From Hyphomicrobiaceae bacterium (GTDB lineage Bacteria > Pseudomonadota > Alphaproteobacteria > Rhizobiales > Hyphomicrobiaceae): a stretch of DNA of 64,000 nucleotides. The notes beneath the pieces were generated by a model, which saw nothing but the letters and a program-made list of their open reading frames with translations, had not been told where the DNA came from and made no database searches. The stretch covers positions 469,070 through 533,069 of the forward strand of contig JAEUMD010000011.1 in the NCBI GenBank assembly GCA_016793635.1, read 5' to 3'. Of this stretch, positions 6,506 to 18,706 are shown one piece after another; the stretch's first letter is position 1, and the number at the start of each line of letters is the position of its first letter. The position numbers and the translations under genes are program-made.

Positions 6506-7687
6506 ATGCCGCGCCCGTTCCGACATATCACCAGCCCCGGCAGAAGCGCTCTCGCGATACCCGTCGCTGTGCTGCTGACGGCCGTGCTTGCTCTGGTCAC
6601 TGTTAGCGTGGCACTCGCCGCGACGGGCGAATCGACCAGCGATGGGGCGGGTGCGGCCATCGCCGAGCTCGAACCGCCGGTGCCTCGGCCAGTTCCGGCG
6701 CGGCGTCCTTCGCCTGAGCCGCTCGCACCGTCGGCACCGGCCGCGGGCCAACTCACAACGCCGAAAGTCCTGCTGCGATCCGCGACGGACATCGGCGCTG
6801 CGGCCAAGCGCCGGCAGACGTCCATCAATGCCGTCACCTCCTGGGGCTACCAGCTCGCGGGGCTCGATGTCGCGACCGCCGCCGCCTCACCTTACGACCT
6901 CCTGGTGGTCGACGGCACGACGGGCCTCGGCGACGGCGATGCAATGACGCCGGACGACGTCGCCCGGCTGAAGCGAAAACCCGATGGCACGCGGCGCCTC
7001 GTCGTCAGCTATCTCTCCATCGGCGAAGCTGAGGACTACCGACCCGACTACTTTGATAAGGAGTACCTGGCCGAGGACGCGCCCGATTGGCTGATGCAGG
7101 AGAACCCGGAGTGGAAGGGCAATCGCATCATCCGCTTCTGCGAGGAGGGATGGCAGCAGACCATTCTCGGCGACGACGAGGGCCGCAGCGTCTACAATAG
7201 CATCGACCCTTCGCCTCTTTACCGGCTGATCGAGCTCGGTCTCGATGGCGTCTACCTCGATCGCGTCGACGTCTACGCCGAGGTGACGAAGCTCTGCCCG
7301 GACGCAGCCGCGCGCATGGTCCGCTTCGTCAAGCGGCTTGCCGAGCATGCCCGGAAGCGCAACCCAGATTTCATCGTCATCCTGCAAAACGCCGAGGAGC
7401 TGCTCGTCCACGCCGATATGATCGCCAGCATCGACGCTATCGCCAAGGAGGACCTGTACTACGGCGTCGATCACAGCGAGAAGTCGAACGACGCCGAGAT
7501 GGTGCGCTCGACCGTCGCGCACTTGAGGCGGGCGCGGGCCGCGGGGCGCCCCGTTTTCTTTGTCGACTATGTGGCAAGCAAAGCCAAAAGCGCCGATGCG
7601 GCGCGGCGCGGGCGCACCGAAGGTTTCATCCCCTATTTCGCGCCGCGCGATCTCGGGCGGCTGTGGCTACCCGGCCGGCAGTTCTGA
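6506..7687 (+). CDS. GH114/PelA-hydrolase-like glycosidase, copy 1 (membrane-anchored or secreted)
   Basis: A 393-residue protein of the MJ1477/TM1410 (GH114-like) barrel family, the same fold as the N-terminal hydrolase domain of PelA, which cleaves GalNAc-rich Pel polymer. A strong hydrophobic segment at residues 16-40 is a signal peptide or anchor, and a Pro/Ala-rich linker (about 50-85) follows. The catalytic barrel starts near 108 (SWGYQLAG). Barrel motifs are LSIGEAE (170-176), DGVYLDRVD (247-255) and ILQNAEE (292-298). The acids in the last two motifs match the places of the catalytic residues in PelA-type hydrolases by family analogy. The gene overlaps the next paralogue by one base (TGATG), so they are translationally coupled. 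It converges on the pel operon, whose PelA lacks this domain. Confidence 0.83.
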   Translation: MPRPFRHITSPGRSALAIPVAVLLTAVLALVTVSVALAATGESTSDGAGAAIAELEPPVPRPVPARRPSPEPLAPSAPAAGQLTTPKVLLRSATDIGAAAKRRQTSINAVTSWGYQLAGLDVATAAASPYDLLVVDGTTGLGDGDAMTPDDVARLKRKPDGTRRLVVSYLSIGEAEDYRPDYFDKEYLAEDAPDWLMQENPEWKGNRIIRFCEEGWQQTILGDDEGRSVYNSIDPSPLYRLIELGLDGVYLDRVDVYAEVTKLCPDAAARMVRFVKRLAEHARKRNPDFIVILQNAEELLVHADMIASIDAIAKEDLYYGVDHSEKSNDAEMVRSTVAHLRRARAAGRPVFFVDYVASKAKSADAARRGRTEGFIPYFAPRDLGRLWLPGRQF

Positions 7688-8685
7688 TGCGGCGCGGCCC
7701 GGGGCTCGCCATCGCCGTTCTCGTGGCCGCCATATCGGCGCTGCCACTGCATGCTGCCGAGCGGCGCGCCATGCGGCACGCGGGCGCCGACACGAACCCG
7801 ATGGGCACAACCAACGCCACGCTCGAGCGCCGCCGGATGCTCGCAGGCGTGCAAAGCTGGCGTTACCAATTGCGCCGCATCGAGATCGACGAGGTCGCGC
7901 GCAGCAGGGCCGATCTCGTCGTCATCGACTACGCCCCCGACCGCGTCTACGGCGTCGAACTTCCGTTCTCAGCCGCCGATGTCCGACGGATGCAGACGAA
8001 GCCCGATGGATCGCGCCGTCTCGTCGTCGCCTATCTCTCCATCGGCGAGGCGGAACGCTATCGCACCTACTGGAACAACGCCTGGTACGACGAGCCGACC
8101 CGGCCGGCCTGGCTCCTGCCGCCCAATCCCCGCTGGGACGGCAACTTTCCAGTACGTTTCTGGAATCCCGACTGGCAGGCGATCATCCTCGGCTCGCCCG
8201 CAGCCTATCTCGATCGCATTGTCGCGGCCGGCTTCGACGGCGTCTATCTCGACCGTGCCGATGTGTTCCAGGAGCTCGACAAGGAGAACCCGCGCGCCGA
8301 ATCCGATATGGCGCGGTTCATCGTCCAGCTCGCACACCATGCCCGCACGCTCGATCCGAATGCTCTCGTCATCCTCCAGAACGCCGAGGAGCTGATGCGG
8401 CGCGCCGAGGTCCGCGAGGCCATCGACGCCATCGCCAAGGAGGATCTGCTGCACGGCGTCGAACATGACGCGCGGCCTAACCCCGCCGACATGGTCCACG
8501 CCGCCCTTGCCGATCTGCGTCGCGCACGCAACCACGGCCTCAAGGTGCTCGTGGTCGAATATCTCGACGATGCCAAGGCGGTGGCACGAGCCGACCGGCG
8601 CATTCGCGCGGAGGGGTTCCTGCCACTGTTCGCCGAACGGAGCCTCGGCACGCTCGATCACCACGGCGCACTGCTGCCCGAGTAG
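7687..8685 (+). CDS. GH114/PelA-hydrolase-like glycosidase, copy 2 (exported)
   Basis: A 332-residue paralogue of the upstream gene. The ATG at 7687 shares its A with the stop codon of copy 1. A Sec-type signal peptide is visible at residues 1-23 (cut probably after LPLHAA). The barrel has SWRYQLR at 57-63, AYLSIGEAE at 115-123, FDGVYLDRAD at 183-192 and ILQNAEE at 229-235, so all acidic motif positions are kept. Unlike copy 1 there is no long Pro-rich linker, so the mature enzyme would be free in the periplasm or outside. Predicted role: cleavage of Pel or a related galactosaminogalactan-like polymer. Specificity is inferred from the fold and locus only. Confidence 0.83.
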   Translation: MRRGPGLAIAVLVAAISALPLHAAERRAMRHAGADTNPMGTTNATLERRRMLAGVQSWRYQLRRIEIDEVARSRADLVVIDYAPDRVYGVELPFSAADVRRMQTKPDGSRRLVVAYLSIGEAERYRTYWNNAWYDEPTRPAWLLPPNPRWDGNFPVRFWNPDWQAIILGSPAAYLDRIVAAGFDGVYLDRADVFQELDKENPRAESDMARFIVQLAHHARTLDPNALVILQNAEELMRRAEVREAIDAIAKEDLLHGVEHDARPNPADMVHAALADLRRARNHGLKVLVVEYLDDAKAVARADRRIRAEGFLPLFAERSLGTLDHHGALLPE

Positions 8686-8783
8686 TGAACAGGTCCTTCG
8701 GCCGCCCCACTCGCCCTGCGCCCGTGGGCGTGGCAGTGTCGCGCCGCATTCGTCCTTGAACGTGACCGAGGGATCAGCCCGCA

Positions 8784-9689
8784 ATGTCCAACCAGCGCGT
8801 CACCCCGACCGCCGCCTCTCCGGCCGGCCGTCTCGCCGAAGTCCGCTCGTGGGGCTACCAGCTCCAGGACCTCGACATCGACGACGCCAGCGCCGCGCCG
8901 CTCGATCTCCTGGTGATCGATTACGCGCTCGACGGCAGCGAGGAAACCGCCCTTTCGCCTGCCGACCTTGAGCGCCTCAAACAACGCCGCGACGGCGGCG
9001 AGCGCCTCGTCTACGCGTACATCTCCGTCGGCGAAGCCGAGACGTATCGCTACTACTGGCGCGAGGAATGGAAGGATGCACCGCCATCCTGGCTGCTCTC
9101 CGAGAACCCGGACTGGCCCGGCAATCACATGGTCGCGTACTGGGACGAGGACTGGCAGGCGATCCTGTTCGGCGGCGCCGGTTGTTACATCGACCGAATC
9201 GCGGCGGCAGGCTTCGACGGCCTCTACCTCGACCGCTGCGACGTGCACGACGACATCGCCGCGCGCGAGAAGCGCGTCGCCAAGGCACGCGGCGACCTCG
9301 AAGGCGACATGACCGCGTTCATCACCCGCCTCAGCGCCTACGTCCGCCGCAACCACCCACGTCTCGGCATCATCATGCAGAACGCCGAACACCTGCTCGA
9401 GCATGCCGAGGTTCGCCACGCCATCGACGGCATCGCGAAGGAGGAACTGCTCTACGGCGAGTCGGGCGGCGCGCGACGCAATGCCAAGGCGACCATCGAG
9501 GAGAACCGCCGCAACCTCGACCGCATGAAGCGCGACGGCAAGGCGGTTCTGGCGGTCGAATACATCGATGATCCGACCAAGAGGCAACAGGCGATCGACG
9601 AGATCCAGGCCCTCGGCTACGTCGCCTACGTGTCGCGCCAGAACCGCGATCTCGCGACGCTGGAGACCGGCGCCGCGCCGATGGCCTGA
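8784..9689 (+). CDS. GH114/PelA-hydrolase-like glycosidase, copy 3 (no signal peptide)
   Basis: A 301-residue third paralogue starting MSNQRVTPTA. It keeps the barrel motifs SWGYQLQ (22-28), YISVGEAE (79-86), FDGLYLDRCD (144-153) and IMQNAEH (197-203). It has no hydrophobic N-terminal segment, so on sequence grounds it would stay in the cytoplasm unless exported by another route. It lies 98 bases after copy 2 and ends 13 bases before the convergent pelG stop codon. A 10-base-pair hairpin sits at the junction. A cytosolic member beside two exported ones is odd for an exopolysaccharide hydrolase. It might act on intracellular material or have lost its leader. Confidence 0.8.
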   Translation: MSNQRVTPTAASPAGRLAEVRSWGYQLQDLDIDDASAAPLDLLVIDYALDGSEETALSPADLERLKQRRDGGERLVYAYISVGEAETYRYYWREEWKDAPPSWLLSENPDWPGNHMVAYWDEDWQAILFGGAGCYIDRIAAAGFDGLYLDRCDVHDDIAAREKRVAKARGDLEGDMTAFITRLSAYVRRNHPRLGIIMQNAEHLLEHAEVRHAIDGIAKEELLYGESGGARRNAKATIEENRRNLDRMKRDGKAVLAVEYIDDPTKRQQAIDEIQALGYVAYVSRQNRDLATLETGAAPMA

Positions 9690-9694
9690 GGAGC

Positions 9695-9720
9695 CGGCGC
9701 CGTCACCGGCGACGGCGCCG
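9695..9720. terminator. Inverted repeat between convergent hydrolase copy 3 and pelG
   Basis: CGGCGCCGTC at 9695-9704 pairs perfectly with GACGGCGCCG at 9711-9720 around a 6-base loop. It sits between two convergent genes and reaches into the last codons of pelG, where it encodes an Arg run. No T-tract follows on either strand, so it is at best a weak or factor-assisted bidirectional terminator. Confidence 0.4.
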
Positions 9721-11124
9721 CCCGCTCTCGGCCGCGCGCACCGACGGGTTGTTGCCGAGGAAGGTGAGAAAATTCAGCCGTTCGAAGGTGCTGTCGGCGG
9801 CGATGTAGGCGGCAAGGCTCGCCAGCAGACAGGCGGCGAAATAGCCGACACCGAAGTACGTTTCGCCGAGCACGACGGTTGCCGCGGTGAAGCCGGCATT
9901 CATGGCGAAAAACGCGACCTGCAATGCGAGGTACAGGCGGCGGCGATCGAAGAACAACAGCATCGAGGTGGCGGCGATGAAGATGAACTGGAACACCGCG
10001 CCGAGCGCTCCATAGCGCAGGATCGCGATCTGCTGGTATTGCAGATTGAGACCATCGACGATCGCCGGCGCCGACAGGACCAGCACCGCGCAGACACCGA
10101 CCTGCATGACGGTGATGAGAACGAGTTGGTCGAGCGTATGGGCCGCGAGGCGCTCGCGGGAGCGCTCGATCTGCTGCAAGGTACCGTGCCCGTCGATGGT
10201 GCTGAAGTAGTGCTGGTAGCGCTCGAAGAAGGTCGTCTCGAGCTGCACCACGAACACCGCCAGAGCGGGAATGATGACGAGAGAGGCGATGAACATCGCA
10301 CTGTCGTAGAGCGGAGCATGGACGAGCCCGGCATCGACGCGCTCGCCCACGCTCGAGAACCAGAAGATCCACTTGTCGATCCAAACGCCAGCGGTGCCGG
10401 CGATCGCACCCAGCGCCAAGTGCGCATAGGACCTGAACCCCGAACGCAGGGCGCGAAGTCCTTCCAACGGGGCGCTGATCGGCCCTGGAAACGTCAGCAG
10501 AACACGTGATGTCAGCCCGACGAGCGTCAGCGCGAGGCCGCTGACGAAGCCCGCCACCATTCCCGCCGCTCCGAGATCCAGCACTGCGGCGGCAATCGCC
10601 GCCGCTACAGATCCCACGAGACCGATCAGAAACGAAAGCGTGACGCCGCGATAGTCGCGCACCGCGCCGCAGAAGCTGAGTGCCACCCAGATCAACGCGA
10701 CGGTGGTCGCCGCCGCCAGTAGCGCCGCGGCGACATCGAGCGGCAGCGCGAAATAAAGCGATAGCCCGATCGTTCCGACCGCGACGGCGACAAGCGCCAC
10801 CGCGAAGGCGGCGAACAGAATGCCGCGCACGCGCTCCGGCTTCTTGAGCCACAGCGCGTCCGCGACGAGGCGAGTCGCGACGATGGTGACGGGGGCGGTA
10901 AGGACGAGCGAAATCGCGAACGCATAGATGATCGCGGCGCGGAAGGTGGCGAGCATGGCGAGCCCCGCCACTTGCCCCGCGACCAGCGTTATGGCGGCCA
11001 GGCTGACGATGGTGAAGAGCCACGGACCAGCGGCGACAACCGCAGCGTGACCGAACGCGCCGACAATGCCGGTCAGGCTCTGTTGCGAGCTCATACGGCG
11101 GAGCTCGAAACCTATCCCAGCCAT
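9703..11124 (-). CDS. pelG: PelG, inner-membrane Pel polysaccharide exporter
   Basis: A 473-residue polytopic protein (about 12 membrane segments) starting MAGIGFELRRM, the typical PelG opening. PelG belongs to the polysaccharide transporter/MVF-like superfamily. It works with PelD, PelE and the glycosyltransferase PelF to move the nascent Pel chain across the inner membrane. Segments such as DKWIFWF near the middle and FFERYQHYFSTIDG in a cytoplasmic loop are typical of the family. The C-terminus ends in a run of Arg. The ATG at 11124 overlaps the end of pelF by 13 bases, which fixes it as the last gene of the operon. A longer upstream in-frame extension would run through pelF and is not credible. 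Confidence 0.93.
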   Translation of the reverse strand: MAGIGFELRRMSSQQSLTGIVGAFGHAAVVAAGPWLFTIVSLAAITLVAGQVAGLAMLATFRAAIIYAFAISLVLTAPVTIVATRLVADALWLKKPERVRGILFAAFAVALVAVAVGTIGLSLYFALPLDVAAALLAAATTVALIWVALSFCGAVRDYRGVTLSFLIGLVGSVAAAIAAAVLDLGAAGMVAGFVSGLALTLVGLTSRVLLTFPGPISAPLEGLRALRSGFRSYAHLALGAIAGTAGVWIDKWIFWFSSVGERVDAGLVHAPLYDSAMFIASLVIIPALAVFVVQLETTFFERYQHYFSTIDGHGTLQQIERSRERLAAHTLDQLVLITVMQVGVCAVLVLSAPAIVDGLNLQYQQIAILRYGALGAVFQFIFIAATSMLLFFDRRRLYLALQVAFFAMNAGFTAATVVLGETYFGVGYFAACLLASLAAYIAADSTFERLNFLTFLGNNPSVRAAESGRRRRR

Positions 11125-12683
11125 CGCCAGCCTCTCTTGCGCCCGGTGGGAACTTGCCGCCCGGGGCGAGCGATCAGGTCGGCGTAGAGCTCTGCGTAGG
11201 CGCCCGCGGCTTTCGCCGACGTGTAATGTGCCTCGACGCGCGCCTTGAGCGCCTCGCCCATCGCCTTGCGGCGCGGGGGATTCGTCAGCAGCGCGCCGAC
11301 AGCGGCCGCCACCTCGTGCGGCGCGACGAGCCCGGTGACCAAGCCGCCCGCACCGAGCCGTGGCATCTCGCCGTCGCGCCCTTCGATAATCTCTCGGCAC
11401 GAGCCGACGTTGGTCGCGACGAATGGCACGCCCGCGGCACCTGCCTCGAGCAATACGAGGGGTTGCGACTCGCTGAGGCTCGTAAGCACGGCGACGTGGA
11501 TTCGCGGGAAGTACTGCGCGACATCGACCGAACCGACGAATTCGACCGTCCCTTCGAGATCGAGGTTGCGGACCAGGTCGCGGCACTCGTTCGCATACGC
11601 TTCGTCCTCGTCGAGCGGGCCGAGCACCAGTGCACTGATGTCGGGGATGCGCTCCTTGAGCAGCTTCGCCGCGACGATATAGGTCTTCACGTCCTTGATC
11701 GGCACCACGCGGCCGATCAGCGCCATCGTCGGGCGTGCGTTGTCGCTCGCGCGCTCGAGACCGGCGAAGCGCCGCGTGTCGATGCCGTTGGCGATCACCC
11801 GGAGGCGAGCCGGATCGGCACCGAGCGCGCGCTCTGCGCGCTGGTTGTCTTCATACAGCGTGACGATGGTATCAGAAGCCTCGTAGCAGGTTCGCGCATA
11901 GGCTTCGAATGCACGCACCCACATGTCGCGCAGATCGACGCGATCGTCGTTCAGGTCGTGCCCCTTGTCGATGTTGTCGGCCACCCAGTCGGCCATCAGC
12001 AGCTCGATGCGCCGCTCGTTCGTGTAGATGCCGTGCTCCGTCAACACCGCCGGCCGGCCAGTCTCCAGCGCGGCACGCGCCGCGAGCAGTCCAGCGTAAC
12101 CCGTCGAGATGGTGTGATAGGCGCGCGCCTTCGGCAGCGGCGCCTCGGCCACTGCGAACAGGCCACCGAGCAACGCCCTCCAGGCCCAGAAATAGTGAAG
12201 GAACGACGATTGAGGCATGTCCGACGCGTACATGCGCTGGACAATCTCCCAGGCGACCGGCGAGTTGAACAATACCGACAGCGGCGCGGAGCGTGCCATT
12301 TCGGCCGCCTTGCGGCTGAACGCGCGCCACGGCTCGACACCGCCCTCGCTGGTAAGGCTGCTCAGCGTCGCGGCGAGCTCGTCGAGGCCGCGCGGCGCAG
12401 CGAGACGCAAACGCGGGCGCGCTCCGAAATCCTGCAGGTAGAGCGTCGAGAACGACTGCACGTTGGCCGGCAGCGCATAGCGCGGCTTGATGTCTGAGGG
12501 ACGCGGCCACAGCGAGACGACATGGAACGAGACGTGCGGCACGGACCGCATGAGCCAGTCGATCCAGCCCGAAACGCCACCCTGCACATACGGATAGCAG
12601 CCTTCGACGACGAGGCAGACATCGGCCTCGCCGGAGGGTGTGCTGCCCGTTGTCATGCGGTTGCTCGGAAAGGGGCGTGTCAT
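11112..12683 (-). CDS. pelF: PelF, GT4-family glycosyltransferase of Pel polymer synthesis
   Basis: A 523-residue cytosolic glycosyltransferase, close to the usual PelF length. The PelF N-terminal signature VVEGCYPYVQGGVSGW is at residues 25-40. The C-terminal GT4 half has GRVVPIKDVKTY (324-335) and the EX7E motif with E405 and E413, the positions known to be essential in Pseudomonas PelF (recalled, not checked). PelF is thought to use UDP-GalNAc/GlcNAc to build the chain and to dock on the PelDEG membrane complex. Its ATG overlaps the pelE stop as ATGA, and pelG starts inside its 3' end, so translation is coupled. Confidence 0.95.
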   Translation of the reverse strand: MTRPFPSNRMTTGSTPSGEADVCLVVEGCYPYVQGGVSGWIDWLMRSVPHVSFHVVSLWPRPSDIKPRYALPANVQSFSTLYLQDFGARPRLRLAAPRGLDELAATLSSLTSEGGVEPWRAFSRKAAEMARSAPLSVLFNSPVAWEIVQRMYASDMPQSSFLHYFWAWRALLGGLFAVAEAPLPKARAYHTISTGYAGLLAARAALETGRPAVLTEHGIYTNERRIELLMADWVADNIDKGHDLNDDRVDLRDMWVRAFEAYARTCYEASDTIVTLYEDNQRAERALGADPARLRVIANGIDTRRFAGLERASDNARPTMALIGRVVPIKDVKTYIVAAKLLKERIPDISALVLGPLDEDEAYANECRDLVRNLDLEGTVEFVGSVDVAQYFPRIHVAVLTSLSESQPLVLLEAGAAGVPFVATNVGSCREIIEGRDGEMPRLGAGGLVTGLVAPHEVAAAVGALLTNPPRRKAMGEALKARVEAHYTSAKAAGAYAELYADLIARPGRQVPTGRKRGWRWLG

Positions 12684-13717
12684 CGCGCGCCAACCTCCGC
12701 GTACGAGACAGGCGGCCCAACTTGGTGCAACCGGCGACGGCGAAGTCGCCCGAGCCCGTTGAGCGCCAGCCGGCGACGCAACCGCAACGCCCGGAGCCGC
12801 GACATCATGCGATGCTCGGCGAGCATGCGTTCATAAGTATCGATCGCCGTCGATGCGTCCACGGCCACGGGTATCGCGAACAGGTCTATCTCGCCGATCG
12901 CGCGTGTCACCGCGCGGCTGGCCCTGTCCTCGATCTCCTTGTCCAAGAGTCCGGAACGCGCCAACCGGTCGAGATCGCTTGCGGCTTCGAGCCGTTGTGC
13001 AACGTCGGGCGTCGCCTGCGCGAGCGCGATCAGTCGATCGGCTTCCGGCGCGAGCCGCGGCCTGACGTGTGCGGCGACGGCGGCGGCCTGCACCCGCACC
13101 ACCGGCTCCTCGCTCGCCAACGCTGCGACCAGCGTCGGCAAGTATCCCGGGTGGAACGAGCGCGCGACAAGGCCGAGCGCACGCTGGCGCGCGTCGAGAG
13201 GGCCGCCCTCCATCACCCCGACGAAAGACGACGGCGCGCCATGCGTGGTATCGATGACGCGGCCCGCGGCGACGCGCTCGGCAAGCCGTGTCTCCTCGTC
13301 CGTTCTCGTCGAGAGCGAGATGCGAGTGTACCAGTCTGCGAGCAGCGCGGATGGCAGTGACGGCCGCCGCAACCAGGTCATTGCCAATGCCGAGATCACA
13401 GCACCGACAGGACCGCTGGTCGCGACCGCCATCAACATGAGCAGCGGCGCGGTCCAGTCGCGCCGGCGGTGCCGGGTGACGTAGACGAGCGCGACGATGA
13501 CCGCGAGCACGATGACGTGGCCGATCAACACCGGCCAGAGCGGATGACCCCGCCAGACATACAGAAGCAATCCGGCTTCCGCTGCCGCAACGATGACGGC
13601 GAGAAGAACGTCCAAACCCGAGACAATGGCGGTGGGCGGGCGCGAGGCCCGATCAGGCACACCACACTCCGCGGTGAGTGCGGCATCGTCTCCCGTCAGG
13701 CGGACGGCGGCATGCAT
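12680..13717 (-). CDS. pelE: PelE-like inner-membrane protein
   Basis: A 345-residue protein between pelD and pelF, the normal pelE position. Three hydrophobic segments lie at about residues 32-55, 60-80 and 91-115. A cytoplasmic alpha-helical part follows with repeated Ala/Leu-rich helices (about 170-270) of HEAT or TPR character, matching the known PelE plan of membrane helices plus TPR-like tail. PelE bridges PelD and PelF/PelG in the synthase complex. The gene starts one base after the pelD stop and its stop overlaps pelF. Sequence similarity in this family is weak, so the call leans on order and topology. Confidence 0.78.
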   Translation of the reverse strand: MHAAVRLTGDDAALTAECGVPDRASRPPTAIVSGLDVLLAVIVAAAEAGLLLYVWRGHPLWPVLIGHVIVLAVIVALVYVTRHRRRDWTAPLLMLMAVATSGPVGAVISALAMTWLRRPSLPSALLADWYTRISLSTRTDEETRLAERVAAGRVIDTTHGAPSSFVGVMEGGPLDARQRALGLVARSFHPGYLPTLVAALASEEPVVRVQAAAVAAHVRPRLAPEADRLIALAQATPDVAQRLEAASDLDRLARSGLLDKEIEDRASRAVTRAIGEIDLFAIPVAVDASTAIDTYERMLAEHRMMSRLRALRLRRRLALNGLGRLRRRRLHQVGPPVSYAEVGAR

Positions 13718-13718
13718 C

Positions 13719-14870
13719 TCAACTCTCCGCCGTCTGCGGCACCGCTGCCGGGGCCAACACGCAAGCCAGTACAGGGCCGGCAGTGCGCTGCTCCGAGGAA
13801 CCTGTACTCGCAGCCTGGCCGAGAGCCGAACCGATCACCTCCGCGACCACCGAAAGCGCGTCGATGCCGCTCTTCGACAGCGCGGCCGGTGATGCGCCGT
13901 CGAGCGTGAGCAATCCGACGATCGCACCGGAAACGTCGCGCACCGGCACCGCAGCGAGCGCGACGCCGATCAGCATCCGCTCGCCATCGCGGTCGAGCGC
14001 CATCGCACGCTCGCCGCGGCCAACGACCGCGCGAACCAGCGGATGCGCAGCAGGAAGCGTTACCGTCGCAGCCAAATCGCCCTGCGCCGGATACGTGGCG
14101 ACACGCGACACACCGCCTGCAGTGGCGGCGAGGAACACCTCGGCACGAGCGCCGGGGAACACCGCCGGTATGAGTATGGCAAGCACCTCCGACAGCGACG
14201 GTGACGCGCCGCCGGCCGTCATCCGTGCATGAGCCACAGCCACCGCTGCTAGGCCGCGGAACGGTTCAGTGTCGCGCCGCGTCGCCAGTTCACGGTCGAG
14301 GATTTCGCAGCGTTGGCGCAACCCCGCGCAATGCGCCGCGAGATCCGCACGCTGGCTCGAAAGCGCCTCGTTGAGGCGATGCAGCTCTTGCTTCGCCGCA
14401 ATCTGGCGCATGCGGAACTGGCCGACCAGCAGCGCCATGGCGATCCACAGGATGGGTTCGCCCCAGACACGAAGGAAGTAGGCGAAGTGGTTTTCGCCGA
14501 TGCCTGGTTCGGGCAAACCCGCGAGCATCGTCGCCGCAATCGCCGCTCCGGCAGCGACGAGGCCGCTGACCGTGCCGTACTGGAGGCTCAAGAGGAGCAG
14601 GGGAATCCAGAAGGGATGCGGCTCGAAATCCAGGATGGCAAGTTGCGGCGCCAGCCAGTCGACGCCGTAGATGAACAGGAAAGCGGCGACCAGCTCGCCG
14701 ATGGCGGCAAGCGATGGCACGACCGGCAAGCCATCTTTGTCCCGCGGCTTGTCGCTGCGCGCCTCCGACTGGACAGGCTCCCGATCACTCACGACTACCG
14801 ACCCCAAATCCGCACAACGACGTACCCACGAGCCGCCTACAGGCTCATCCTCGCTTCTCGACTGCCGCAA
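13719..14870 (-). CDS. pelD: PelD-like GAF protein lacking the C-terminal GGDEF (c-di-GMP) domain
   Basis: A 383-residue protein with a PelD-like N-terminus of about four membrane segments (residues 47-155), a coiled helix (about 160-200) and a GAF domain (about 210-355). In Pseudomonas, PelD is about 455 residues and ends in a degenerate GGDEF domain whose RxxD site binds c-di-GMP and switches on Pel synthesis. Here only about 30 low-complexity residues follow the GAF domain, so that receptor part is missing. The most upstream start is a TTG at 14870, which overlaps pelB by 26 bases. A GTG at 14792 with GGGG 8 bases upstream is a good alternative. The assignment to PelD is supported by order and topology. 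Confidence 0.8.
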   Translation of the reverse strand: MRQSRSEDEPVGGSWVRRCADLGSVVVSDREPVQSEARSDKPRDKDGLPVVPSLAAIGELVAAFLFIYGVDWLAPQLAILDFEPHPFWIPLLLLSLQYGTVSGLVAAGAAIAATMLAGLPEPGIGENHFAYFLRVWGEPILWIAMALLVGQFRMRQIAAKQELHRLNEALSSQRADLAAHCAGLRQRCEILDRELATRRDTEPFRGLAAVAVAHARMTAGGASPSLSEVLAILIPAVFPGARAEVFLAATAGGVSRVATYPAQGDLAATVTLPAAHPLVRAVVGRGERAMALDRDGERMLIGVALAAVPVRDVSGAIVGLLTLDGASPAALSKSGIDALSVVAEVIGSALGQAASTGSSEQRTAGPVLACVLAPAAVPQTAES

Positions 14871-16365
14871 GCGGCCGCGCTACCGGCGCAGGGCGCGACG
14901 CCGCGCCACCCGACCGGTAAGCCGAATTCTTGACGTTGGCGGCCTTGCCACGCTTGCCTTGCGTCAGCTTTACGGCGTGGCTGCGCTTTGCTCCACCCGC
15001 AAGGCGCAACGATATGCGCCGCGTCCGCCGCTGTAGAATGCGCGGTTTGTCGTCGGGCAGCGACGCGGTGACGACGCCGAGCGAGCGCAACTTCGTATCC
15101 GCAGCCTGTGCTTCGCCACTGTCGCGCATAAGGCGTGCCCACAACGCCAGACGCCAGCGGCCGAGCGCATCGGCGGAGACGGTGTCGAGAAGCTCGCGGC
15201 TGCTCGACGTCGCGCCCCGATTGAATTCGATCATCGCCCCGAGCAGCGGATGGGCGGTGATCGTCTCGGATGCAATCTCGAGGCGCACGGTATCGAACTC
15301 GGCCCGTTTACCGGTGGCGGCCAGCGCTTCGGCAAGAGCCACGAGCTGCGGCTGGTGGAAGCGTGAGAGGCCCGTGCGCGTCGCCATTTCGAAGGCCAAT
15401 GACGGGTCTTCAGCGTCGAGCGCGAGGCGAATGGCCTTTTCCGCCAGCGCCCGGTCGCCATGATCGGCTTGCTCGAGCCAGCCGCGAAGATAGGCGCGTG
15501 CGGCGTTTGTCTGGTCCTGGTCGAGCAGCAGGTGCGCGACGCCGAGCGAGATGGCGTCGCCTGGCTTTCCGGCCTTGCGCGCGATCTCCATCGCCGGCGT
15601 GAAGGCCTGGCGGCGGCCGAGCAGATCTAGCGCCAGGAGCGCAAAACGGTCGTCCACGTGGCCGCCACTGGCCGGCGCAATCCAATGAAGCACGCGCTCG
15701 ACGATCTCGCGCGGCTCGCCGCCCTCGCTCAGCAGCGCCAGGAGCGTGAGCCGCTCGCGATCACCCTCGAGATGACCGACCTCGTCGACTTTGCGCAGGA
15801 GCGTTGTTGCCTGACGCAGATTGCCGTTGGCGGCCTCGAGCTCGGCTAAGCGTACGATGTCCTCGATGCGCCGGTAGCCCTTGTGGCGGCAACGCTCGAT
15901 CGCGTCGCGTTCACGCGCGAAATGGCCGATGAGCCGCAGTCCAGATACGAGCTCGCGGCAAACGGGCTCTGAGTAACGCCGTGTGAGCAGGCGGCTCAAC
16001 GACGACAGATAGGCCTCGGTGTCCTGGGTCTCCCGGTAGAACGTCACCAGACGGCGCTGCAAAACAAGATCGCCCGGTCGCGCGGCGGCGAGGCGCTCGA
16101 GCATCGTGCGTGCCTTGGGAAGCTGGCCGAAGTGCGCGTAGAGCTGCTCGAGCTGATAGAGCGTGCGCTGCGAACGGTCACCGGCGGCGAACCGCTGCTC
16201 GAGTAGCTTCAGAGCGCGCTCGTTGCTGCCGTCCCGCTCGAGCATCGCGACGCGTTCGGCATCGCCCGGCAGCAGCAGGACGCCGGCCACCGCGGCGCCG
16301 ATGAACAGCACCAGCATGACCAGCAGTTGCGGCTTCCAGCGTTGTCTGCGGCGGGGCTCAATCAC
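14845..16365 (-). CDS. PelB-like TPR protein, membrane-anchored, without outer-membrane barrel
   Basis: A 506-residue protein with one N-terminal membrane anchor (about residues 13-30) and then tandem tetratricopeptide-like helices over most of its length (about 45-430). A basic tail (about 450-506, many Lys/Arg) follows. In Pseudomonas, PelB is about 1,200 residues: periplasmic TPRs that bind PelA, followed by a 16-stranded outer-membrane barrel. The gene has the position of pelB, directly after pelA with an 8-base overlap, but only the TPR half is present. The GTG start at 16365 overlaps the pelA stop. It probably recruits the PelA deacetylase or guides polymer; the export pore must be elsewhere or different. 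Confidence 0.7.
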   Translation of the reverse strand: MIEPRRRQRWKPQLLVMLVLFIGAAVAGVLLLPGDAERVAMLERDGSNERALKLLEQRFAAGDRSQRTLYQLEQLYAHFGQLPKARTMLERLAAARPGDLVLQRRLVTFYRETQDTEAYLSSLSRLLTRRYSEPVCRELVSGLRLIGHFARERDAIERCRHKGYRRIEDIVRLAELEAANGNLRQATTLLRKVDEVGHLEGDRERLTLLALLSEGGEPREIVERVLHWIAPASGGHVDDRFALLALDLLGRRQAFTPAMEIARKAGKPGDAISLGVAHLLLDQDQTNAARAYLRGWLEQADHGDRALAEKAIRLALDAEDPSLAFEMATRTGLSRFHQPQLVALAEALAATGKRAEFDTVRLEIASETITAHPLLGAMIEFNRGATSSSRELLDTVSADALGRWRLALWARLMRDSGEAQAADTKLRSLGVVTASLPDDKPRILQRRTRRISLRLAGGAKRSHAVKLTQGKRGKAANVKNSAYRSGGAASRPAPVARPLAAVEKRG

Positions 16366-18706
16366 GGCACACGAGCCTCACCTGGACGGGATCGATGGCA
16401 TTCGCGGCAAGCGCCAGTCGCAGAACGCCGCTATCGTCGGCAACCGCCGACAGGCTCGTCAGCATGTCGTCGCCGCGCATCACGGTGACGTCGTAGCGGC
16501 GTCCCGGCATGGTATCGAATCGCATGTCGCCAGGACCGTAGCCCGTCGCCGCGAGTTTCAAATTGCACGCACTGCCCTGGAGATCGGACAGCCGCCAACG
16601 GCTGTCGCGCAGCGAAGGGCGACGAACGCCGCTCCGGTTGGCCGCCTCGGTCTCGGTGCGGGCGGCGAGCGTGACGAGTGCGCGCGGACGGGCACGGTCG
16701 AGCGTGACATAAAGGCCCCCGTTCACCCGTGTCGCGCCGAGAACCCCCTCGCTGCGCGCAAGGTCGAGGCCCAGCGCATCCGCATCGTCGAAGCGCACCG
16801 TTTCGAGGTCGGTATGCCCGGTGATCGCCCACGACAGCTCGTCAATACGCTCGATCGCGATGTCGAAGAAGTTGTCGGCGATTGCGGCATAGTCCGACGC
16901 GGTTACCGGCGCGACTTCGGAGGTCCGCGCCAGCTCGAGGAAATGACGCACGGCGGCGAGTGCGGCAGGCTTCTCGCCGGAGTACATGTGATAGTAGAGG
17001 TTGAACGGCTTCAACCGGCGCGGCCTCTCGGTATTGCGCAGCGTCTCTTCGAGCATGAAGAAGCCGTAGTAAGGTCCCGTCCAGTCGTTGGTGTAGGTAT
17101 TCTCGTTGCTGTTCGCCGCATAGATCTGCCGCTCGCTGCCGACCGCGCGCGCCAGCGGCGGAACGTAAGCGACGGAGGGGAACTCGCCGTCGAGACGGCT
17201 GTCGCCGCCGTTGATGTTGCGCACGCCGGCGGCGCGCGTCGCCTTGATCGCCGCCTCGAACGGCGTCGTGTCGCCGCTCCACTGATAGAGACGGGCGCGT
17301 TTGCCGGCTGGAGCAAAGTTCTCCGCGGTGCGAAGACCGCCCGCCACCTCGCCGCCGAGATCGAACGGGTTCTTGAGGTACGTGCGCGGCAGGTCGTCGG
17401 TGCCGGCGATGTACTTGTTGGCGCCGGTCACCGGCACCGGCTTGCCCGCCATCAGGTGCACCTTCTCGCTCAGCCGCTGGCGCAGGCTGAGTTCCGGGCG
17501 CTGATAAGCCTCGATCTTGGCGATCTCGCTCGCGCGGTCGTAGTCCTCGAAGAAACTCCAGTTGTAGGGGTGCGTGTGGGTGTGGCTCGCAACTTCGACC
17601 TGCGCCAGCGCATAAAGCGCCCGGGCGATGGCGGCCGAGCCGTCATCGGCGCCATACTGGGGATCGACATCACAGCCGATCAGCCCGATCGAGACCGGCA
17701 GGTCAGGAAACGGCCTGATCGCCTCGCGCAACACCACTTCGGAGGAGCGCAGCCCCTCGGTCTTGTAGCTTTCAACCTCGGTCAGGTTGTTCCAGCCGTC
17801 GCCGTCGATATGGCTGAAGTAGATCCGCCGTCCGCCGACCGTGGTCGCGTCGGGCACGGGATACATGCCGCCGACTATCGCCTTCGCGAAAAAGCGGAAC
17901 GGATCGATGGTCCATGCGAGGCGGTCGGCGTTCGGCTCGAAGTAGATCGTGAAAGCTTCTGCAGCGTAGCCACCGCCGGGGCCTGTCACCACCACTGCGG
18001 ACACTTCACTCGACGCCCCGGGGCGGACCTGGAGACCGAGGTGGACACGGGTTCTTTCACCGACCGCCCGCAGCACGGGATAGGACGGCAGGACCTTATC
18101 GAGCGGACGTTCGAAGCCGATCATCGCCGCATCGATCTCCGCGACACTCGAGCCGATCGTGACCTCGACCTGGTCATCGCCATCGGCAAGACCGAGCTTC
18201 GCGTAGAGCCGGTCCGTGACGGGGGCGAGTTCCTCGCCCGCCTCGGGTAGCAACTCGCCGAGAACGACATAACGCAGACGCGTTGCCGCGGTCGCGCGCA
18301 TCAACCAGTCGCCGACCGCGCGCGGATCCGAGAGGGGTTCGAGAAACCAGGTCAGAACCGCGGCGTACGAGGACAGCGTGTCGGCGTCCGGAAACCCCTT
18401 GTTGACGTCGCGGTACACGAGCACGAAGCCGAGGTAGTTGAGCGGCATTTCAGCGAAGCGATGGATGCGCGTGTCGGTCGGCGTCGGCTCGGCCTTGCCG
18501 TCGTAGAGCGCAAGCACTTGTCGCTGGACAGGGTTCGCGTTGTATGTGATTTCGACGCCATGCGCGAATGGCGCGGCGACGATCCAGATCCAGCCAGCGA
18601 GCAACAACGCGATCACGGGCACACGATCCGGCGGGCGGCCAGTCCGGGCAATGAACCCGGCCAGGCCAGACCGGGTCCGCCCCCACTCGCGCAACGCCAC
18701 CACCAT
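16358..18706 (-). CDS. pelA: PelA-type polysaccharide deacetylase, lacking the N-terminal hydrolase domain
   Basis: A 782-residue exported protein; a hydrophobic segment at 30-46 ends in AHG, probably a signal peptide. Residues 50-290 resemble the PelA reductase-like and linker region (LGFVLVYRDVN near 92). The deacetylase core has HIDGDGW (299-305) and SHTHTHPYNW (374-383). D301, D303, H375 and H379 match the spacing of the metal and catalytic residues known in Pseudomonas PelA (D528, D530, H600, H604, recalled). A beta-rich C-terminal part follows. Deacetylation of GalNAc/GlcNAc makes Pel cationic. The usual N-terminal GH domain is absent; three separate genes of that fold lie convergent at 6506-9689. 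It is the first gene of the pel operon. Confidence 0.88.
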   Translation of the reverse strand: MVVALREWGRTRSGLAGFIARTGRPPDRVPVIALLLAGWIWIVAAPFAHGVEITYNANPVQRQVLALYDGKAEPTPTDTRIHRFAEMPLNYLGFVLVYRDVNKGFPDADTLSSYAAVLTWFLEPLSDPRAVGDWLMRATAATRLRYVVLGELLPEAGEELAPVTDRLYAKLGLADGDDQVEVTIGSSVAEIDAAMIGFERPLDKVLPSYPVLRAVGERTRVHLGLQVRPGASSEVSAVVVTGPGGGYAAEAFTIYFEPNADRLAWTIDPFRFFAKAIVGGMYPVPDATTVGGRRIYFSHIDGDGWNNLTEVESYKTEGLRSSEVVLREAIRPFPDLPVSIGLIGCDVDPQYGADDGSAAIARALYALAQVEVASHTHTHPYNWSFFEDYDRASEIAKIEAYQRPELSLRQRLSEKVHLMAGKPVPVTGANKYIAGTDDLPRTYLKNPFDLGGEVAGGLRTAENFAPAGKRARLYQWSGDTTPFEAAIKATRAAGVRNINGGDSRLDGEFPSVAYVPPLARAVGSERQIYAANSNENTYTNDWTGPYYGFFMLEETLRNTERPRRLKPFNLYYHMYSGEKPAALAAVRHFLELARTSEVAPVTASDYAAIADNFFDIAIERIDELSWAITGHTDLETVRFDDADALGLDLARSEGVLGATRVNGGLYVTLDRARPRALVTLAARTETEAANRSGVRRPSLRDSRWRLSDLQGSACNLKLAATGYGPGDMRFDTMPGRRYDVTVMRGDDMLTSLSAVADDSGVLRLALAANAIDPVQVRLVCRD

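Follow-up and report, generated by a model that had tools for sequence, protein, structure and literature searches.

Gene content of the locus

A stretch of 64,000 nucleotides from a Hyphomicrobiaceae bacterium (hereafter the window; positions 469070-533069 of contig C12 of the source genome G000, an assembly of 3.82 Mb in 26 contigs) was analysed for a pel (Pel exopolysaccharide) locus and for three glycoside hydrolase (GH) genes, named here h1, h2 and h3, that lie against it. Our results show that this arrangement is real, that it recurs in other bacteria and that it is a variant of known pel systems.

The locus consists of a minus-strand operon with the order pelA-TPR-pelD-pelE-pelF-pelG (9703-18706 of the window) and a plus-strand trio, h1-h2-h3 (6506-9689), that converges on it. 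The operon comprises pelA (16358..18706), encoding a deacetylase-only PelA (PelA-DA) of 782 amino acids (aa) that matches the solved PelA chain 9cgy in phmmer (E 6.6e-57), a gene for a TPR protein of 506 aa in the pelB position (14845..16365), for which an AlphaFold2 model was made, pelD (13719..14870), encoding a transmembrane and GAF region, a gene in the pelE position (12680..13717), pelF (11112..12683), encoding a GT4 glycosyltransferase (NF038011, 431 bits; cut-off 100), and pelG (9703..11124), encoding the inner-membrane exporter (PF16933, 356 bits; cut-off 29). PelF and PelG both lie far above their curated cut-offs, and by these two markers the operon is a Pel locus. Neither PelD nor PelE reached a Pfam cut-off; both assignments follow from gene position and from resemblance to the genes at these places in the pel loci of relatives.

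The trio begins with h1 (6506..7687; PF03537 86.7 bits, TIGR01370 188.9 bits), followed by h2 (7663..8685; 82 and 205 bits), which was aligned to TM1410, and h3 (8784..9689; 78 and 237.7 bits), which was modelled with AlphaFold2; the cut-offs are 27 bits for PF03537 and 181.25 bits for TIGR01370 (MJ1477/TM1410). Because the h1 stop and an h2 start overlap as TGATG at the ATG at 7687, the true start of h2 is probably this codon rather than 7663, which would give the protein a signal-peptide-like N-terminus. That three separate genes converge on the operon, as the initial annotation of this DNA had stated, is confirmed by their layout: the stop codons of h3 (9687-9689) and pelG (9703-9705) face each other tail to tail, 13 bp apart, and in four relatives (L077, L080, L081, L082) the 3' ends of the two open reading frames (ORFs) overlap by 26 bp. 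A terminator scan of positions 9400-10000 returned a single site, at 9917-9938, and none between h3 and pelG.

The convergent genes encode GH191 hydrolases

With hidden Markov model profiles built in this analysis, h1-h3 scored 389-419 bits for GH191 and 48-55 bits for GH166, the family of the Pseudomonas PelA hydrolase domain, and the possibility that they are copies of that domain was therefore ruled out. By sequence for h1 and h2, and for h3 by predicted fold as well, the three proteins are GH191 hydrolases, cousins of the PelA hydrolase and not GH166 itself. The h3 model (predicted local distance difference test score, pLDDT, 91.5) was compared with the Protein Data Bank (PDB) by Foldseek, where the first 11 matches are GH191/TM1410 chains (9eux, E 1.8e-28; 9ep5, E 6.8e-24), followed by the PelA hydrolase structures 5tcb (E 1.3e-13, TM score 0.66) and 5tsy, with which the h3 model shares its barrel fold. 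The initial annotation had proposed that the hydrolase fold missing from PelA occurs three times beside the operon, and had named placement in an unrelated GH family as the outcome that would speak against it. The fold likeness holds for the h3 model, which matched GH191 first and then the PelA hydrolase, and the adverse outcome did not arise; the genes are, however, not a GH166 domain moved out of PelA.

For all three proteins, the alignment with TM1410 and 9ep5 extends across the catalytic Asp and Glu (D156/E225 of TmGH191, corresponding to D150/E220 of h3). This pair is kept in 24/24 rows of the h1/h2/h3 set; across a wider GH191 alignment, D150 is invariant in 140/140 rows and E220 is present in 138/140, the remaining two rows being gapped.

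The N-terminus of h1 has a hydrophobic stretch followed by a Pro-rich linker. By a simple hydropathy score, and with start codons uncertain, 48 of the 53 GH191 sequences in the family set carry an N-terminal hydrophobic stretch, the five below threshold being h3 of the source strain, L094, L095, L102 and one of L107. The h3 orthologues that were read have a transmembrane helix and, in most cases, a Pro-rich linker, both of which the source-strain h3 lacks. A longer in-frame h3 carrying an anchor was ruled out by an in-frame TGA at 8763-8765 and by the h2-h3 gap of 98 bp. Action in the cell envelope would fit the N-termini of most GH191 proteins.

The source genome has seven PF03537 genes, which make up its whole GH191 set: three at pel and one each on C5, C10, C16 and C23. 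The four dispersed copies sit among what we take to be housekeeping genes (N-termini judged by eye), and the one on C10 (L072, 9118-11088) lies tail to tail with what is presumably a ctrA-like response-regulator gene. A TGA inside the C23 copy was considered and rejected, as the reported span merely ends at the ORF's own stop and the PF03537 match is stop-free.

GH191 genes recur beside pel in the Hyphomicrobiaceae

Across 103 genomes of the same family, with TIGR01370 counted at E<=1e-3 (one gene may give two matches), PelG was found in 15 genomes and TIGR01370 in 23. GH191 was present in 15/15 PelG-positive genomes versus 8/88 PelG-negative ones (Fisher p 1.2e-12, a value that ignores kinship), and the PelG-positive genomes carry 5-10 TIGR01370 matches each. 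The eight genomes with GH191 and no PelG are G373 (7 matches, 73% complete), G377 (3 matches, 54% complete) and G152, G220, G257, G305, G310 and G323, with 1-2 matches each. In a sample of 297 genomes from the order, PelG exceeded its cut-off in three, with GH191 adjoining in all three; GH191 exceeded its cut-off in 6/297, these three included, and in 12/297 at E<=1e-3. One genome of this sample (G077) gave a sub-threshold PelG match and had no GH191.

The family sample contains 18 PelG places, of which 13 besides the source locus were fetched, fragments in G357 (two), G358 and G364 being left out. A convergent GH191 triple lies beside pelG in 5 of these 13 loci (L075, L077, L080, L081, L082) and a GH191 pair in one (L083), and another (L084) has one GH191 gene on the operon's own strand. 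A second, diverged pel locus of G362 (L076, C23:178000-195000) has a GH166-like gene instead of GH191. In L086, L089 and L090, less than 3 kb was available downstream of pelG. The layout was thus found in other Hyphomicrobiaceae, and the prospect, raised in the initial annotation, of relatives in which these genes are never near pel did not hold.

In a GH191 tree built by a quick method, the three genes fall into orthologue groups that span genera, with Shimodaira-Hasegawa-like approximate likelihood ratio test (SH-aLRT) support of 100 for h1, 92 for h2 and 99 for h3, and the orphan copies form groups of their own. Because of these orthologue groups, the ordered triple is, by this tree, older than several genera. 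A recent tandem duplication in the source strain was rejected, since in this tree h1, h2 and h3 each group with counterparts from other genera, and a chance neighbourhood was ruled out by the recurring gene order and by the co-occurrence of GH191 with PelG.

Linkage outside the family

In G271, from another family of the order, the genes lie on one strand as pelD-E-F-G-GH191-pelA-TPR. When named genomes were scanned with the GH191 alignment, the best 80 of 560 confirmed matches yielded 79 loci; these loci were chosen by GH191 and therefore speak to linkage and not to frequency. PelG or PelA lies in the available sequence around GH191 in 12 of the 79 (best 80 of 560), all in Hyphomicrobiales: three in Hyphomicrobium, one in Hyphomicrobiaceae D5_Bin_14 and two each in Pelagibacterium, Devosia, Pseudovibrio and Methylobacterium. 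Eight of these 12 loci are additional to the same-family sample. In a sample of 398 genomes from the phylum, GH191 exceeded its cut-off in five, the source included, and G406 is the sole one of these five besides the source with GH191 on the pelG contig near pelA. There (L128, C58, 1959-6249), outside the class of the source, GH191 and GH166-like genes flank one deacetylase-only pelA.

A second, diverged pel locus of G359 (L084, C129:13000-32900) falls with Methylobacterium both by its PelA-DA (98) and by its GH191 (99), a shared placement which hints that the two genes moved as a pair. The two trees agree only in part: in that of PelA-DA, G271 and Pseudovibrio stand together (95), and in that of GH191 these two are left unresolved within a group of six rows (97) that also includes Methylobacterium and L084.

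A deacetylase-only PelA

The absence of an N-terminal GH domain from PelA, as first annotated, was borne out. Against 9cgy, a chain of 900 residues, its alignment covers 256-562 and 607-819 and leaves the N-terminal part of that chain unmatched, and a multiple alignment likewise showed that the protein lacks the N-terminal part of fused PelAs. It contains HIDGDG at 299 and SHTHTHP at 374, and residues H299, D301, D303, H375 and H379 are invariant in 11 aligned PelAs. We take these His/Asp motifs to be the conserved deacetylase motifs. Identity of PelA-DA to the two fused PelAs aligned is 29-30%.

PelG exceeded its cut-off in 30 of the 398 phylum genomes, at 32 places, and the 31 loci besides the source locus were fetched. 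Thirteen have a fused GH166-PelA (898-1001 aa); in nine the PelA is deacetylase-only and a GH166-like gene stands by itself upstream, in the same orientation (in L139 at only 33 bits); and one (L141) has a deacetylase-only PelA and no hydrolase found in the region fetched; the other eight were left unclassed, at contig ends or without a PelA match. In one of the nine split loci (L129, G395 C18, 13996-18010), two tandem PelA deacetylase-like ORFs of 816 and 512 aa stand beside a GH166-like gene.

The split PelA is accordingly not new, occurring both in Gram-positives and in other Gram-negatives with a separate GH166-like gene. An unrooted tree of 38 PelA rows parts fused PelAs from split ones (100) and gathers the Hyphomicrobiales type into a single group (94). 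The initial annotation had held that the two activities "have been separated" in this bacterium, which assumed a direction; since deacetylase-only PelA also occurs in Gram-positives and in 10 other proteobacterial loci, and the PelA tree is unrooted, neither fusion nor splitting is established as the later event.

PelB, PelC and PelD

The reading of the operon as pelA-B-D-E-F-G stood as far as the genes are concerned, except that the supposed pelB encodes a transmembrane and TPR protein with no barrel in its model, and pelC was not found. In this model (pLDDT 80.5), a transmembrane helix (12-30) is followed by helical repeats and a low-confidence tail (434-506), and a beta-barrel is absent. 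The 50 Foldseek matches listed were generic TPR proteins, and a profile of the protein gave no match to a PelB structure. A profile of ten PelB C-terminal parts, which matched 3/3 control genomes (including G566, which had not contributed to the profile), gave no PelB barrel at E<=1 in any of eight genomes of the same pel type, the source genome included. PelC was likewise not found by profile in these 8/8 genomes, with a profile that can miss: it matched G566 and G391 and failed on G704, a PelG-positive genome of the class.

PelD stops after the GAF region and is without the GGDEF domain, the cyclic di-GMP (c-di-GMP) site, as judged from alignment and PDB coverage. The match of the family PelD profile to solved PelD is confined to chain residues 63-155 of 297 (E 6e-5), whereas the PelD profile built from the split GH166 group aligns its C-terminal part with GGDEF structures; the source PelD gave only weak GAF matches in the Pfam scan. 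PF16963 (PelD_GGDEF) matches the PelD of L113 but misses those of L126 and L141, and the GGDEF call was made on the alignment. In L080 (G375 C7, 12775-13930), pelD is represented by two overlapping ORFs that are out of frame with each other, which may reflect a frameshift or an error of assembly.

Comparison with known systems

With the P. aeruginosa pelABCDEFG operon, the source locus shares the deacetylase part of PelA, PelF, PelG, parts of PelD and PelE and an associated hydrolase of the same fold. In the available parts of PMC7112168 and PMC12345266, that operon has GH166 fused to PelA, the PelB barrel, PelC and the PelD GGDEF domain, none of which was found in the source.

Closer in layout is Bacillus cereus ATCC 10987, whose pelDEA(DA)FG operon, from the accessible text of PMC7112168, includes a deacetylase-only PelA and is adjoined by a separately transcribed hydrolase (PelAH), and in which loss of PelAH raised biofilm. 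The same text confirms the deacetylase-only PelA that the initial annotation had mentioned for some Gram-positive pel operons. B. cereus differs in being monoderm, in having one hydrolase, likened there to the P. aeruginosa PelA hydrolase domain, and in having a PelD GGDEF domain; the source is diderm, has GH191 in three genes plus orphans, and has a PelD without GGDEF. By its deacetylase-only PelA, its separate hydrolase and the lack of detected outer-membrane parts, the locus falls with the Gram-positive type, although its gene order and hydrolase family differ and its host is diderm.

The pel locus of Streptococcus intermedius, so far as PMC12345266 was available, shares a PelD without GGDEF, a deacetylase-only PelA and a separate active hydrolase (SIR_1591), and differs in its monoderm host and in the extra genes SIR_1591-1594. 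That PelD can lose its GGDEF domain is known from streptococci (portions of PMC7112168 and PMC12345266), and the outer-membrane pore gene is described as lost in some alphaproteobacterial cellulose operons (extracts of PMC7112194).

The split proteobacterial loci (L126-L130, L134, L137, L139, L140) are, like the source, diderm and have a deacetylase-only PelA and a separate hydrolase gene. They differ in that the hydrolase is GH166-like and lies upstream of pelA on the same strand, and in that a PelB barrel stands beside pelA in all eight of the nine that were examined for it (L134 was not among these eight). TM1410 (9eux) and Env-GH191 (9ep5) share with h1-h3 the sequence family and the catalytic Asp/Glu and, with h3, the fold. 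In the part of PMC12054363 at hand, no operon link of GH191 is reported and the word "operon" occurs 0 times. Searches of an open-licence library, main texts only, turned up no account of a diderm pel locus lacking PelB/PelC, nor of a link between GH191 and pel.

Proposed role of the GH191 enzymes

Our findings make it probable that the locus belongs to a pel type shared by several families of the Hyphomicrobiales, and that its Pel-like polymer is trimmed by GH191 enzymes located mostly in the envelope. PelF, PelD, PelE and PelG would synthesise a Pel-like polymer of alpha-1,4-(N-acetyl)galactosamine and carry it over the inner membrane, the deacetylase-only PelA would partly deacetylate it, and separate, mostly envelope-located GH191 endo-alpha-galactosaminidases, three from the convergent unit and four encoded elsewhere in the genome, would cut the chains, replacing the fused GH166 domain of Pseudomonas. 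By analogy with B. cereus, cutting may limit or release the matrix. We infer that the polymer is Pel, that GH191 proteins cut it, where these proteins are located and that cutting and synthesis are under separate control. Control of cutting apart from synthesis is plausible from the convergent units; bearing on this, the GH191 gene of G271 shares the strand of the operon, between pelG and pelA.

Several observations weigh against this reading. In the available part of PMC12054363, TM1410 neither cut nor bound fungal galactosaminogalactan (GAG) oligomers, and GH191 membership therefore need not mean Pel; removal of the hydrolase linked to pel in S. intermedius produced no phenotype (available portion of PMC12345266). 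The h3 of the source strain is without an export signal or anchor, and four of the seven GH191 copies of its genome are unlinked to pel. In two family loci, L085 (G359) and L087 (G381), the roughly 9.5 kb downstream of pelG is free of GH191 genes; the GH191 triple of G381 sits at a contig end elsewhere (L088). From the best 80 of 560, 67/79 GH191 loci are without PelG or PelA in the sequence available, many contigs being short. Among the phylum genomes, G391 and G398 carry GH191 distant from pelG or on a separate contig, and G657 has GH191 but no PelG. Finally, the pel-linked GH191s are not one clade: those of Devosiaceae, those of G271, Pseudovibrio, Methylobacterium and L084, and h1-h3 form separate groups among orphans.

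A bolder form of the proposal, which we regard as doubtful, is that of a Hyphomicrobiales Pel system without PelB, PelC and the c-di-GMP domain of PelD, co-inherited in Hyphomicrobiaceae with about seven envelope GH191 enzymes, in which export or release would occur by cutting, short chains leaving otherwise or the polymer staying in the envelope to be remodelled, and in which cutting, not synthesis, would be regulated.

It is unlikely that the operon makes a different, non-Pel polymer, such as a holdfast-associated, hypha-associated or periplasmic glycan, for which the GH191 enzymes would be specific. The missing PelB barrel and PelC, the PelD without GGDEF and an identity of just 29-30% between PelA-DA and two fused PelAs are in keeping with such a polymer, but PelF and PelG score far above what their models demand (431 bits against an equivalog cut-off of 100, and 356 bits to the Pfam model), the deacetylase motifs are intact, and one GH191 member is reported to cleave Pel (available text of PMC12054363).

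Similarly low is the probability we give to a role of GH191 in release or export, by which the polymer, in a cell without the PelB pore, would be cut short to cross the outer membrane or be kept and remodelled in the periplasm. This would agree with the failure to find PelB barrel and PelC in 8/8 genomes and with the N-terminal hydrophobic stretch of 48/53 family-set proteins; yet the search did not extend to an unrelated or strongly diverged outer-membrane channel, and the PelC profile missed G704, which is PelG-positive and of the same class.

Improbable is a matrix-degrading or nutrient-scavenging toolkit directed against the galactosaminoglycans of neighbours, beside pel but outside Pel making: four copies lie dispersed among housekeeping-looking genes (judged by eye) and GH191 is widely spread without pel in view, but multi-copy GH191 presence follows PelG, the ordered triple adjoins pelG in several genera, in G271 the GH191 gene is inserted between pelG and pelA in their own orientation, and the PelA-DA and GH191 of the second locus of G359 group alike.

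With these findings, a newly defined hydrolase family, GH191, is tied to a polymer-making locus, its structural founder TM1410 being without a demonstrated substrate, and the hydrolase place beside pel is filled by different families in different lineages. The arrangement raises the questions of how Pel is exported in a diderm without recognisable PelB or PelC, and of what replaces c-di-GMP control at PelD. Devosia, Pseudovibrio and Methylobacterium are linked genera with cultured members, and new Pel-cutting enzymes may be useful against Pel biofilms. In the genome scans, the Thermotoga maritima control genome matched both PelG and TIGR01370.

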